Below, piece by piece: positions 1,267-9,277 of a DNA stretch of 11,225 bases (positions are counted from its first letter, which is position 1; the number at the start of each line of letters is the position of its first letter). Source of the DNA: an uncultured Bacteroidales bacterium (GTDB taxonomy: Bacteria; Bacteroidota; Bacteroidia; Bacteroidales; UBA932). A program made the translations under genes and the position numbers. The notes below the pieces were generated by a model. It saw only the letters and a program-made list of their open reading frames with translations. It made no database searches and was not told the origin of the DNA. Location of the stretch: contig CAMJRT010000023.1 of the NCBI GenBank assembly GCA_946408295.1, forward strand, positions 1 to 11,225. The letters run 5' to 3'.

Positions 1267-3312
1267 TTACTCCTCGTGTATCACGGGGGCGGGTAACATC
1301 GGCATCACTTTGGGCGGGATTTTTTCCGTTACGCTGCCGTATGTCGCTCCGGTGACGATATCCCGCAAAGGATCCGTCGGATCGTCTTTACTGAAGAAGG
1401 TGGTCAGATTGAATGTTTCTCCTGCAATATCCAGAATCCGTTTCACAATCAGCAAGCGTTGCCAGGTGGAGAAGTAACGCCGGTTGTCTATCATGCAACT
1501 GATTCTTTCACTTCTCCATCGGTTGAAGATGGACACTTGTCCCCCGTGGTACACGCCAATCCGGCTATACAAAGGATTCATCGCCTCCAAGGTACTGAGA
1601 TTATCCAGTAGGGCGCTTTGCCAGGGCGGATTGTTATAAGTGGCTGAGATATTCAATCCATAAGGAACCGGAAAAGCGTGAGAATCAATCGCTGTGACCG
1701 CTGGCAGATAACTGCTGTACCAATATTCATCCAAAAGCCTTGAGAAGCCGTGTCCGCCGAATTCGTGCAAAAAAATATTCCGCCAGTCTCCCTGTGAAAT
1801 CCCCAATGCCTGTTTTTCCGCATTCGTGACCGTTCTCGTCCCCCCGGTCATCGTGCTCTCGTTGACGGCTTCTGTATCAGGATAACCCCAACCTATAACT
1901 CCTCCCGCATTTACATAAGGAACCATTCCCAAGCATCTTGAGTTTGTATAATTGTGACATATTCCTCCGTATCGGGTATCATTGATAATCATAACGGTCG
2001 CGACTTCGCTGCCGGTATGGATTCCGTTGATCACATCCGGACAATTATTGGTGACAAACGCCAGCACTTTATCCAGGTTCGCCGTCATATCACTATAGGA
2101 CTCGCTTCCCCAGCGGGATTCAAAATAGGTATCTTTCCGTTTGATGATATTCCCGCTTCCATCCGTAATGCTGGATCCTGATTCGTTGGATGGAGTTTTC
2201 AGAATCCAGACATTGAAGTATTCTTTGTAGGATTTGAAGGGTTCCACGGAGAACATCATATCAATCCCGCTCTTGGCCAGCATTTCAAAATCACTCAACT
2301 CTTCCTGCTTGAATCCTTCTGAAATCACGGCGATGCTGACCGGTGTTTTTCCGGAGGTGGATTGTATGTAGAGCGTGGCGTTTTCCGGGTCGTCATCAAT
2401 GAGGTCACTGCCTATGTTTATCGTGCCTAAATCACTGATTATAGAGCGATTAAGTATTATTTTCTTATTGGATACCAGTGTTTTTCTGTTCGTTCCATCC
2501 GAGAAAGACATCGTGAATCCGTACTGTGTTCCGGGCATTACGGTGAAATAATAATCCACCCCTGTTCGGAAAGAACCCGTCAAGGTCACGGTGTTGGATT
2601 TGACATCGTCATTAAAGTATATTTCATTAGTCAGCACAGGTGTTCCATCCTCTTCGACCAGTAAAATGCAGTCCCCCGCCATGGTGTTCCCTCCTTTTAA
2701 GGAAATGGAGGTCACGCTGCTTACCACGGAACCGCTTAAACGGAATTTGATGAAGGAACTGCAATTCAGAAAATGAAAGTTGCTATTTTGTACATTTGTT
2801 CTACAAAATGACACATTCGACCCGGGCGAAATGGAGCCTGCCGTGGCCGTTTGGTTGATAGGAATAGTTATTCCAAATGCAGTCGAACCATTGTACTGTG
2901 TCATTTTTCGTACCGAAGGATAAATACAGTAAAAAGGTGCGATCGTTAGCGTGCTGCTATAACTGAAGTTGGCAACCTCTCCCCCGGCAGAAGTTGTATA
3001 GACAGTATAAGGATATTTACCGGTAGAAGAGTCATAGGTGAGCATTTCAAAACTGTCACCCGGATTCCAGATTACTTTGGCGTAAGTTCCATCATCGCTC
3101 AGTTCAGAATGCGTCTTACTCCCCTCTTCTTTAAATTCCGCCGTCGCCGCTCCCCCTCCCGGATTTCCTGCGACTTTTTGGTTGCTCATATCTTCCAACA
3201 GCCAGACGTCTTTCTTCTCTGGCTGTGGAAGCGTTGTTATTTCTTTGGAAATTTTACCGCACGCGGCTAGCCCCCATAATAAAAGAAAAAGAATATAACC
3301 CTGCTTTTTCAT
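1267..3312 (-). CDS. Fimbrillin-like / M64 family metallopeptidase lipoprotein
   Basis: Predicted exported lipoprotein of 681 residues. A short basic and hydrophobic signal ends in the lipobox LAAC, with the lipidated cysteine at 18. Residues of about 60-300 resemble Bacteroidota fimbrillin-like (Mfa/FimB type) beta-sandwich proteins: a VIWNPGDSFEM segment at 80-90, an APFYCIYPS segment at 125-133, an IPINQTA segment at 150-156, and an F-C-x-S-F-I-K-F core at 181-190. From about 312 the sequence matches peptidase M64 (IgA-peptidase-like): SEGFKQEE at 331-338, PFKSYKEYFNVW at 358-369, and the zinc motif HEFGGHGFSRLLDEY at 516-530. The two histidines are one residue further apart than in HExxH. 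Known M64 enzymes include a clostridial IgA protease; the substrate here is unknown. The start is supported by AGGAGG seven bases upstream. It is the second gene after a 44-residue ORF, probably translationally coupled to it. Confidence 0.88.
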   Translation of the reverse strand: MKKQGYILFLLLWGLAACGKISKEITTLPQPEKKDVWLLEDMSNQKVAGNPGGGAATAEFKEEGSKTHSELSDDGTYAKVIWNPGDSFEMLTYDSSTGKYPYTVYTTSAGGEVANFSYSSTLTIAPFYCIYPSVRKMTQYNGSTAFGITIPINQTATAGSISPGSNVSFCRTNVQNSNFHFLNCSSFIKFRLSGSVVSSVTSISLKGGNTMAGDCILLVEEDGTPVLTNEIYFNDDVKSNTVTLTGSFRTGVDYYFTVMPGTQYGFTMSFSDGTNRKTLVSNKKIILNRSIISDLGTINIGSDLIDDDPENATLYIQSTSGKTPVSIAVISEGFKQEELSDFEMLAKSGIDMMFSVEPFKSYKEYFNVWILKTPSNESGSSITDGSGNIIKRKDTYFESRWGSESYSDMTANLDKVLAFVTNNCPDVINGIHTGSEVATVMIINDTRYGGICHNYTNSRCLGMVPYVNAGGVIGWGYPDTEAVNESTMTGGTRTVTNAEKQALGISQGDWRNIFLHEFGGHGFSRLLDEYWYSSYLPAVTAIDSHAFPVPYGLNISATYNNPPWQSALLDNLSTLEAMNPLYSRIGVYHGGQVSIFNRWRSERISCMIDNRRYFSTWQRLLIVKRILDIAGETFNLTTFFSKDDPTDPLRDIVTGATYGSVTEKIPPKVMPMLPAPVIHEE

Positions 3313-3319
3313 ATCTTTT

Positions 3320-3326
3320 CCTCCTA
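3320..3326 (-). promoter_or_regulatory. Strong Shine-Dalgarno fused to a stop codon (TAGGAGG)
   Basis: On the minus strand TAGGAGG reads as the TAG stop of the 44-residue ORF (3324-3326) run into a full AGGAGG (3320-3325), seven bases before the ATG of the M64 gene. It fixes the peptidase start. A consensus Shine-Dalgarno stands out because the other genes in the window lack one. The arrangement suggests ribosomes terminating on the small ORF reload on the peptidase gene (inference). Confidence 0.85.
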
Positions 3327-3458
3327 TTCTTCAAAAAAATGATAGGTGAAGCCGGGATCAACGGGAACGACCGGAATCTTTTCGTGGCTGCCGGTAAGAA
3401 GAGTCTGTTCGATGGATAGTGGAACGGACGTCAGCGAGGGGCTTTGGTAATTACACAT
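3324..3458 (-). CDS. Small 44-residue ORF upstream of the M64 lipoprotein, unknown function
   Basis: An intact reading frame from ATG (3456-3458) to TAG (3324-3326) fills nearly all of the space between the predicted promoter and the peptidase gene. The product begins MCNYQSPSLTSVPLSIEQ and ends HFFEE. It has no signal peptide or membrane segment. The YxxP start, hydrophobic-plus-acidic middle and short TGS segment are reminiscent, from memory, of the roughly 50-residue proteins often found beside Bacteroidales surface lipoprotein genes, but I cannot confirm a family. Support for translation: a -7 box at 3479-3486 puts the start about 14 bases after the expected transcription start; AAGG immediately precedes the ATG; the stop is built into the next gene's Shine-Dalgarno. 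It could be a leader peptide, a partner of the peptidase, or a chance frame. Confidence 0.6.
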   Translation of the reverse strand: MCNYQSPSLTSVPLSIEQTLLTGSHEKIPVVPVDPGFTYHFFEE

Positions 3459-3478: not shown

Positions 3479-3508
3479 CAAAGGTATGGATTTTTTTTGA
3501 TTTCCAAA
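3479..3508 (-). promoter_or_regulatory. Promoter of the small ORF and M64 peptidase unit
   Basis: On the minus strand TTTG (3505-3508), an 18-base spacer and TACCTTTG (3479-3486) match the Bacteroidota housekeeping promoter at every fixed position. The predicted transcription start is near 3472. If the small ORF were not translated, the peptidase mRNA would have a leader of about 160 bases. It interleaves with the ruvA promoter on the other strand. Confidence 0.7.
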
Positions 3509-3543: not shown

Positions 3544-4134
3544 ATGATAGACTACATTAAGGGTAAAATTGTCGAGTTGCTTCCCACCGACATTGTGATT
3601 GAATGCGGAGGTATCGGGTACCACGCTTTTATTTCTCTCCAGACGTATGCCATGTTGGAAAATAAGTCGGATACGACCCTCTTTATCCATCATATCCTTC
3701 GCGAGGACGAAGAAATGTTTTATGGATTTTCCAGCAAAGATGAGCGCCAGTTCTTCCGTCTGCTGATCGGCGTGAGCGGTGTGGGGGCCAGTACCGCCCG
3801 TATGATGTTATCTTCTTTGAGTGCAGACGAGATTCGCGAAGCTATTTTGAGTGAGAATGTATCCCGCATCAAATCCATCAAAGGAATCGGTCTGAAGACA
3901 GCCCAGCGAATCATTCTTGAATTAAAAGATAAAGTGGTCAAGGGCGAAGGTTCCGACTCCACCGTGTTCTTTTCCGGCCAAGCCACCCATGCCGTGGCGG
4001 ACGAAGCCATTACTGCACTGCTTATGCTTGGTTTCCCCAAGCCGGCCGTTCAGAAATTGGTGGGTTCGCTGGTTCAGGAAAATCCCACGGCCGGCGTAGA
4101 AGTTTTAATCAAGACCGCGCTGCAAAAGTTGTGA
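3544..4134 (+). CDS. ruvA: Holliday junction DNA-binding protein RuvA
   Basis: RuvA binds the four-way junction as a tetramer and loads RuvB. The product has 196 residues, normal for the family. The N-terminal OB-fold (about 1-63) starts MIDYIKGKIVE and includes the acidic-pin segment LREDEEMFYGF at 52-62. Two helix-hairpin-helix motifs follow, VSGVGASTAR at 77-86 and IKGIGLKTAQR at 112-122. After a short linker (about 131-147), the C-terminal RuvB-contact domain (about 148-196) contains DEAITALLMLGF. I chose the ATG at 3544, since conserved sequence begins there; an upstream in-frame ATG at 3472 lies before the promoter. ruvA diverges from the M64 unit and converges on mnmG, ending three bases before the parS-like palindrome. 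ruvB lies 2.3 kb upstream on the same strand rather than in one operon. Confidence 0.96.
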   Translation: MIDYIKGKIVELLPTDIVIECGGIGYHAFISLQTYAMLENKSDTTLFIHHILREDEEMFYGFSSKDERQFFRLLIGVSGVGASTARMMLSSLSADEIREAILSENVSRIKSIKGIGLKTAQRIILELKDKVVKGEGSDSTVFFSGQATHAVADEAITALLMLGFPKPAVQKLVGSLVQENPTAGVEVLIKTALQKL

Positions 4135-8908: not shown

Positions 8909-9277
8909 CTACAAAAGACCTTTGGTAAAGATGCGGTTGTCCAGACGCAATTCGGTTTCGCTATTGAACTTACCGTCATAAGTTTCAAGTTCACCGTGTA
9001 CTGTGAAGGTAATCGTAATCATTTCTCCGGCAAGGCTGGGTTTGGCGCCGGAGAGAATGAAGGTTCCGCTGTATTGCTTTCGGCCGCCCTCTTTATCGAT
9101 TTCGTCCATCGTGCATCCGCTCTGGCTGTCGAATGTCAGATGATAGGTGTCAGTGCCTTCTGAAGCTATCCACGTTGTTCCGATCAGAGATTTGGCAAGG
9201 TTGATGTCTTTTTGGCAGGAGGTGGTCATAACCGCAGCGACGAGAACGCTGGCCAAAATAACGAGAATTTTTTTCAT
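8909..9277 (-). CDS. Small putative lipoprotein, unknown function
   Basis: A 122-residue product with a clear lipoprotein signal: MKK, a hydrophobic stretch of 4-17, and TTSC with the acylated cysteine at 21. The residues after it, QKD, resemble the start of the lysine-plus-acidic export signal that sends Bacteroidota lipoproteins to the cell surface, though only one acidic residue follows. The mature part (about 100 residues) alternates hydrophobic and polar residues with a TTWIASEG segment at 34-41 and repeated short strands, which looks like a small beta-barrel or lipocalin-like fold; that is an inference from pattern only. I do not recognise a named family. It has its own promoter, diverges from frdA, and ends 18 bases after the shared terminator. 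Confidence 0.8.
   Translation of the reverse strand: MKKILVILASVLVAAVMTTSCQKDINLAKSLIGTTWIASEGTDTYHLTFDSQSGCTMDEIDKEGGRKQYSGTFILSGAKPSLAGEMITITFTVHGELETYDGKFNSETELRLDNRIFTKGLL

Follow-up and report, generated by a model that had tools for sequence, protein, structure and literature searches.

PqqD-like RREs bind RiPP leaders at a YxxP motif. The described systems closest to the locus considered here are the Linear Polyphosphorylated Peptides (LPP; LppA-K-B-S-D-N), RiPPs that are stated in the available passages of PMC13381572 to be restricted to Bacillota and to have an unknown biological role. According to the same passages, the YxxP of the LPP leader is essential for RRE binding, as judged by mutation, cleavage occurs after T-1 and before x-x-Ser3, and phosphates are placed on Ser3. 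The open-licence literature yielded no description of a Bacteroidales LPP variant, of the small ORF (sORF) family discussed below or of an sORF–lipoprotein unit, and nucleotidyltransferase and HPr are absent from the available passages of PMC10352776, which concerns RiPP mining in Bacteroidales.

We analysed an 11,225-nt stretch from an uncultured Bacteroidales bacterium (the window; contig CAMJRT010000023.1 of assembly GCA_946408295.1), in which an uncalled sORF lies immediately ahead of an M64 peptidase gene. The reading that we favor, with a probability of about 0.62, is that the sORF encodes an LPP-like RiPP precursor that is co-translated with its lipoprotein and served by machinery acting in trans. 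Its observed basis is the conserved coding of the sORF, the coupling geometry, the association of the family with lipoproteins, the gene sets near family members and homologues of the machinery in three close relatives. The features of the locus are collected in Table 1.

Table 1. Features of the sORF–M64 locus in window coordinates
Feature	Position	Strand	Basis or interpretation
sORF, 44 codons plus stop	3324..3458	minus	candidate precursor peptide of an LPP-like RiPP
TAGGAGG	3320..3326	minus	sORF stop overlapping the M64 Shine-Dalgarno
-7 promoter-like element TACCTTTG, TAnnTTTG type	3479..3486	minus	pattern search
Predicted leader, residues 1-21	3396..3458	minus	family spacing Y..P(12)PhiPhi-x-x-S and LPP cleavage before x-x-Ser3
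Y4-Q-S-P7, candidate RRE-binding motif YxxP	3438..3449	minus	motif conservation and LPP precedent
Predicted core TGSHEKIPVVPVDPGFTYHFFEE (residues 22-44), including a variable acidic tail	3327..3395	minus	predicted cleavage site
Candidate phosphosite Ser24 (Y+20), third residue of the predicted core	3387..3389	minus	family conservation and LPP Ser3
681-aa lipoprotein, fimbrillin-like N-terminal half and M64 peptidase domain	1267..3312	minus	Pfam, model, Foldseek
ruvA, divergent neighbour outside the unit	3544..4134	plus	RuvA_N E 6.3e-19; start MIDYIKG by inspection

The original prediction described an intact minus-strand frame of 44 residues that ends within the Shine-Dalgarno (SD) sequence of the M64 gene, and this is what the sequence contains. 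The translation is MCNYQSPSLTSVPLSIEQTLLTGSHEKIPVVPVDPGFTYHFFEE, the TAG (3326-3324) forms the start of TAGGAGG, GGAGG is followed by the M64 ATG after 7 nt, and the spacing from sORF stop to M64 start is 11 nt. The TAnnTTTG box ends 20 nt upstream of the sORF ATG. The M64 domain of the downstream lipoprotein matches PF09471 (E 2.9e-14), and the predicted model of the protein (pLDDT 81) matches the BF3526/BACOVA_00663 peptidases, Bacteroides fimbrial and adhesion proteins and Mfa3 in Foldseek. Since ruvA is divergent and the ORF at 99-1247 (ruvB by eye) converges on the M64 gene from the other side, the sORF and the M64 gene form a unit of two genes. Elsewhere in the window (8909-9277, minus strand) there is a 122-aa lipoprotein, called by eye, with no Pfam match.

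The 44-aa product has no match among Pfam, NCBIfam or PHROG profiles, and assignment to a known small-protein family was rejected on these grounds; 46 relatives (alignment A2) gave only two single weak matches in Pfam and none in NCBIfam. A sequence search for relatives of solved structure returned none, and the model of the peptide (pLDDT 79, pTM 0.25), which lacks secondary structure, carries little information. An Rfam element was also considered and rejected.

Judged by sequence comparison, the window sORF is a conserved protein-coding gene. Among 5.8 billion proteins, a search with the sequence by itself turned up one relative (95% identical), and a profile of 46 relatives matched 31 proteins at E <= 1. 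Searching with the M64 gene gave 74 loci with titles of Bacteroidia, Bacteroidales or Bacteroidaceae, many from rumen; four are cut off (L004, L050, L059 and L074), leaving 70 that are testable. The original prediction proposed a search of related genomes for a small ORF just upstream of M64, and a family sORF is present there in 52 of the 70 (profile, at least 15 bits). Of these sORFs, 31 belonged to the 32-sequence seed and 21 lie outside it. Weaker versions are recognizable by eye at two loci (L058 and L063), at two more (L031 and L056) only a tail-like motif is present, where the preceding lipoprotein ends, and the sORF is absent from 14. Where M64 identity to the window is at least 60%, the frame is retained in all four testable loci (L001, L002, L003 and L007), so that the loss in close relatives that might have told against the sORF is not seen. 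A further sample of M64/fimbrillin-like loci chosen irrespective of the sORF (L131-L160) was mostly unusable because many of its members have ~100 nt of upstream sequence; the sORF is present at L131 and L147, and none was found at L140, L142, L156 or L159.

The synonymous-site bias that the original prediction called for is also evident. Over 10 pairs drawn from the window and the four close loci, pN/pS is 0.15-0.42, versus 0.84-2.08 when the frames of the three closest sequences are shifted, which indicates purifying selection at the protein level; 15 other sORF pairs give 0.20-0.78. Pooled over the clade, pN/pS is 0.38 for codons 2-24 and 0.16 for codons 25-39.

The stop-to-start gap is at most 20 nt in 50 of 51 measured M64-linked sORFs, a set that includes the window (two further M64-linked sORFs were unmeasurable). 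The coupling geometry noted at the window thus recurs among M64-linked sORFs, and translational coupling of the sORF and M64 genes is credible on this positional evidence. In L002 and L003 the sORF stop has shifted, yet it remains within 4 nt of the M64 start. The SD sequence, by comparison, had been called exceptional, and it proves to be unusual and not unique: in the sampled loci, an anti-SD duplex of -6 kcal/mol or better is found at 31% of 51 M64 starts, as against 12% of 340 other ORF starts and none of 54 sORF starts. Over 55 sORFs, a TAnnTTTG box lies 4-5 nt upstream of the start in 7, 18-22 nt upstream in 15 and farther away in 5, and it is absent in 28. The seven with the box 4-5 nt upstream are those of L011, L013, L015, L017, L018, L025 and L027; this placement (7/55) would suit leaderless mRNAs, although it is suggestive only.

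Geometry of this kind is also what would be expected of a pure leader cistron acting in cis, in which the small ORF just delivers ribosomes to the lipoprotein start and the peptide has no function. Several observations agree with this explanation: (i) the gaps cluster at -8, -4, +1/+2 and +11 to +13; (ii) M64 starts are enriched in strong SD sequences and sORF starts have none; (iii) at four loci that lack the sORF (L024, L034, L041 and L051), the M64 gene starts directly at the stop of another large gene; and (iv) the available passages of PMC12548453 propose that a short upstream ORF can deliver ribosomes. The large gene is SufD-like by eye at L024, L034 and L041. However, a peptide without function would not be expected to show the low pN/pS of the true frame relative to shifted frames, constraint on both halves of the sORF or retention of the Y..P...S motif across diverged sequences, and it would not explain why sORF relatives sit in RRE gene sets. 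We therefore regard a purely cis-acting cistron as unlikely.

An attenuator, or a ribosome-arrest peptide that controls the operon, would also place a short ORF in the leader, and the C-terminal half of the peptide contains prolines; moreover, the available passages of PMC7366714, on the B. theta transcriptome, report sORFs in long 5' UTRs that are reminiscent of leader peptides. The suggestion in the original prediction of a regulatory leader does not survive in the form of an RNA attenuator: the fold of the leader RNA at the window is ordinary (z = +0.78) and the sORF/M64 leader has no terminator-like site, and an attenuator hairpin was rejected on both counts. Across the family, anything from 24 to 53 residues separates the conserved P from the stop, which also argues against this reading, and control of this type is very improbable.

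The family extends well beyond M64. Applied to 19 genomes, the profile of M64-linked sORFs gave additional, weaker matches, several of them ahead of lipoproteins without M64, and family and genus samples added more. A widened profile of 93 sequences (A3) found 6-18 matches at E <= 0.1 in each of eight genomes, mostly ahead of a lipoprotein. With the partner called by an automatic lipobox test on fetched loci, a lipoprotein is the next gene after the family match in 17/23 (L105-L130) and 40/46 (L161-L215) cases and, for the eight genomes, in 19/24 and 34/40, versus 56/1178 for control small ORFs. The corresponding figure for the order sample is 7/22 judged; the link thus holds strongly for genomes close to the window's lineage and weakly for remote Bacteroidales. 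Across the order, family matches occur in 27 of 295 genomes, four of them spurious because they lie inside long ORFs. The statement in the original prediction that small ORFs are common ahead of Bacteroidales surface lipoproteins is therefore borne out in the fetched family loci. One genome (G455) has six paralogous sORFs with the common tail LPDVGDGGDAW (L112, L123, L126, L128, L129 and L130), five of which are followed by a lipoprotein by eye. At L238 and L274, a family sORF precedes a signal-peptide protein that lacks a lipobox and is SusC/TonB-receptor-like by eye.

These distributions bear on the proposal, also made in the original prediction, that the M64 peptidase has the peptide as its partner, inhibitor or chaperone, which would then act in the cytosol. 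Linkage to M64 is frequent (52/70 loci), and a P-x-D-P type tail, a pattern picked by eye, is present in 35 of 53 M64-linked sORFs versus 2 of 76 others; on these sequence comparisons, the tails of M64-linked sORFs are partner-specific. Many of the other partner lipoproteins match the profile of the M64 protein. A role dedicated to M64 nevertheless fails to account for family members ahead of many lipoproteins that lack M64 and for those in RRE gene sets. Moreover, no signal peptide is apparent on the product by inspection, so that the peptide, if free, would stay apart from the exported enzyme. A partner of this type is accordingly highly improbable.

Family members share a grammar with rigid spacing: Y-x-x-P, 12 residues, two hydrophobic residues, x-x-Ser and an acidic variable tail. 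In A2, P7 is invariant and Y4 is present in at least 90% of the 46 sequences. Among the 93 rows of A3, position Y+16 is hydrophobic in 92, Y+17 is hydrophobic in 89 and Y+20 is Ser in 71, counts that are partly circular because the rows were chosen by profile. Ser occupies Y+20 in 33 of 52 M64-linked sORFs, and the 20 C-terminal residues of family members carry a median net charge of -4. By analogy with LPP, the window peptide is predicted to lose its leader after Leu21 and to carry phosphate on Ser24.

Family members were found in or beside sets of genes for an HprK-like kinase, a small SpI/S24-like peptidase, an RRE, an NTP transferase (NTase) and an ABC transporter, at loci selected for the apparent closeness of sORF and PqqD positions. 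Such sets are seen in L341 (G038; sORF-kinase-SpI-RRE-NTase-ABC, one strand) and L365 (G249; sORF-lipoprotein-kinase-SpI-RRE-NTase-ABC, one strand). In L340 (G109) the RRE is followed ~40 nt on by the sORF and then by the kinase, SpI and an ABC-like ORF, with the NTase on another contig. In L364, from a genome (G528) of the same genus as the close relative G006, an sORF-lipoprotein pair is divergent from a full set whose NTase and ABC were called by eye, and L325 (G455) has the gene set between two flanking sORF-lipoprotein units. Other arrangements are present in L327 (G406; sORF, lipoprotein, RRE and NTase) and L345 (G132; sORF, lipoprotein, ABC, PqqD match and kinase-like gene, mostly by eye). 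The sORF matches to the profile in L340 and L341 are modest (25.6 and 22.4 bits). A lasso-like cluster in G112 (L342), with WxxP and an Asn-synthase-like protein of 631 aa (by eye), was not counted as support.

The enzymes are recognizable to differing degrees. The P-loop GxSGxGKST and a DD are invariant in eight HprK-like proteins, including that of L328 (G006), and the domain matches HprK_rel_A/B or ScmC, in all cases below curated cut-offs. In six SpI-like proteins S-M-x-P, H-R and G-D are invariant; the assignments fall below curated cut-offs (L341, TIGR02228, E 1.8e-8) except that of L365, where PF00717 is above the cut-off. SpI homologues were matched in 10 of 10 genomes, five of which had supplied query sequences. 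NTP_transf_5 (PF14907) is found in L325, L327, L328, L341 and L365, and the transporter domains PF00005 and PF00664 in L325, L365 and L341, PF00664 being just under the cut-off in L341. Taken together, the Y-x-x-P...Ser motif and the presence of family members in or beside these PqqD/RRE-kinase-SpI-NTase-ABC sets point to a RiPP precursor.

Co-occurrence across the order sample of 295 genomes is consistent with this assignment. After the four genomes with matches inside long ORFs had been dropped (G094, G120, G253 and G305), NTP_transf_5 is found in 17/23 sORF genomes versus 78/272 others (p 2e-5), and PqqD (PF05402) in 20/23 versus 165/272 (p 0.013). Including those four genomes gives 22/27 for PqqD and 18/27 for the NTase, and excluding the lasso-like G112 with its WxxP gives 19/22 and 16/22. 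In at least six genomes (at least five without G112), 6 kb or less separates an sORF from a listed PqqD, versus 0.27 genomes expected, the 6-kb limit having been chosen after the distances were known. PqqD is present in 7 of 8 sORF-rich genomes and also in 185 of the 295 order genomes, so that its presence alone says little; in the genus sample its association with the sORF is not significant (34/52 versus 3/9, p 0.14).

PqqD loci were also selected on other grounds, 14 of them by PqqD score and 11 for having PqqD and NTase close together. By the filters applied, none of these 25 has a family YxxP sORF within about 6 kb, and some of them carry the full enzyme set. Small WxxP ORFs occur near PqqD in four of the 14 (L348, L350, L356 and L357) and are probably ordinary lasso precursors. 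Enzyme sets that lack a local family precursor occur both in genomes with dispersed sORFs (G074, G130 and G227) and in genomes where no sORF was detected (G097 and G201). Kinase-SpI-RRE-NTase sets, called by eye, with no local Y..P precursor of the family are present in Bacteroidales genomes at L372, L373, L377, L379 and L380.

Homologues of these components are present in three close relatives of the window's organism. In G001, G002 and G006, whose M64 proteins are 81% (L001), 71% (L002) and 83% (L007) identical to that of the window, the RRE, ABC, kinase and NTase genes are found at one locus each (L329, L331 and L328, respectively). For L328 the RRE and NTase are called by Pfam, the kinase by homology and the ABC by eye, and the calls at L329 and L331 are largely by eye. 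PF05402 (PqqD, a discrete RRE) is found in all three genomes, and their SpI homologues lie apart from the RRE-kinase locus; a fourth, G003, has an SpI homologue, and no PqqD was found in it. No kinase, SpI, RRE, NTase or ABC gene was seen by inspection within the 11-kb window. Since PqqD and the M64-linked sORF are on different contigs in G001, G002 and G006, the machinery would act in trans, and by analogy with these relatives the window's own organism would be expected to encode it.

We propose that the sORF encodes an LPP-like precursor of Bacteroidales and opens a two-gene unit as its first cistron. Its translation would hand ribosomes to the lipoprotein gene by termination-reinitiation, aided by the SD sequence on its stop codon. 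The Y-x-x-P leader at the N terminus of the linear precursor would dock on the discrete PqqD-like RRE, the conserved Ser near the core start would be phosphorylated by the HprK-like kinase, the leader would be cut off by the SpI-like peptidase, and the acidic core would be exported by the MsbA-like transporter and act together with the co-made lipoprotein. Every chemical step, the cleavage site, export and the peptide-lipoprotein interaction are drawn here by analogy. A more specific version, which we consider possible at somewhat less than even odds, is that one trans-acting kinase-RRE-peptidase-NTase-transporter set serves dispersed precursors, every one of them translated together with a surface lipoprotein of its own, often a fimbrillin-like one, and that the exported phosphorylated core is loaded on this lipoprotein as a detachable tail or ligand.

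The detachable tail is hinted at by L031 and L056, where lipoproteins upstream of M64 (L031:342-2678 and L056:1999-3765) have C-terminal ends that resemble the sORF core (...TSTTEPYPLDPFDPGFD and ...TSGYDVDPVEF, respectively). In L056 the lipoprotein is followed by an 11-codon micro-ORF that repeats the tail, and its TAA overlaps the M64 ATG. At the other end of the precursor, a leader-like motif is fused in frame before a lipoprotein signal peptide in G006:C24 (L095/L278) and G001:C4 (L099/L293). The motif reads YVMPKSKI..ILAGSNEKI in G006, the fusion is open in both genomes, and the fused ORFs of L278 and L293 have a pN/pS of 0.43 over the first 41 codons (a value of 0.93 beyond codon 62, obtained by comparing the sequences without gaps, is left out of the evidence). 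The core-like lipoprotein ends and the leader fused ahead of a lipoprotein hint, at the level of sequence, that peptide and lipoprotein work together.

These leader fusions, together with the proximity that coupling would impose on peptide and lipoprotein, could alternatively mean that the Y..P peptide serves to recruit the RRE and kinase and that modification falls on the nascent lipoprotein and not on the peptide tail. Against this reading, the core half is the most constrained part of the sORF, and the gene-set members in L341 and L340 have no lipoprotein directly after them; we consider modification of the lipoprotein quite improbable. If the LPP-like precursor reading is correct, (i) rumen and gut Bacteroidales would join Bacillota, to which this RiPP class is reported to be restricted, (ii) an explanation would be available for Bacteroidales kinase-RRE-NTase sets that have no nearby precursor, (iii) small uncalled ORFs ahead of surface lipoproteins would acquire a testable role and (iv) a fixed surface-protein partner for each precursor would give a direct handle on the role of LPP.

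How far the system resembles LPP can be judged against the available passages of PMC13381572. As in LPP, the sets in relatives comprise a discrete RRE, an HprK-like kinase, an archaeal-type SpI-like leader peptidase, an NTP transferase and an MsbA-like transporter, and the precursors are small, with an N-terminal YxxP leader, a Ser soon after the predicted cleavage site and a variable C terminus. Unlike LPP, the hosts are Bacteroidales, the precursors are dispersed (6-18 per genome in the eight genomes) and often far from the machinery, and most of those near the window's lineage are coupled to lipoproteins. The window has the YxxP of the LPP leader as Y4-Q-S-P7 and departs from the printed consensus YxxPxVLxHQxIxFETxxS: what the two have in common is YxxP, spaced hydrophobics and an xxS further on, VLxHQxIxFET is unmatched in the family, and Ser is at Y+20 in place of Y+18. 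The precursor is within the gene set in L340, L341 and L365, adjacent to it in L364 and outside it in the window, G001, G002 and G006. Membership in LPP is unproven because the window's own precursor has neither the full leader consensus nor the clustered position, and the system is therefore LPP-like and not a proven LPP member. Lasso peptides of the paeninodin type likewise combine a PqqD-like RRE with a [Y/W]xxP leader, and the kinase and NTase are common to paeninodin clusters (available passages of PMC13381572) and the sORF-linked sets. In the gene lists of L340, L341, L364 and L365, inspection revealed no macrolactam or Asn-synthase-like cyclase and no B2 peptidase, and the lasso-like cluster at L342 is separate from the sORF family system. 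The partner lipoprotein of the window shares its fimbrillin-like half with the type V pilus/fimbrillin lipoproteins (Mfa and FimA); the small ORF itself is not a pilin, and we know of no fimbrillin operon described with a RiPP precursor. Finally, the sORF resembles coupled uORFs and leader cistrons in being a short ORF that ends at the start of the next gene, and differs from them in that its amino-acid sequence is conserved and members of its family are found in enzyme gene sets.
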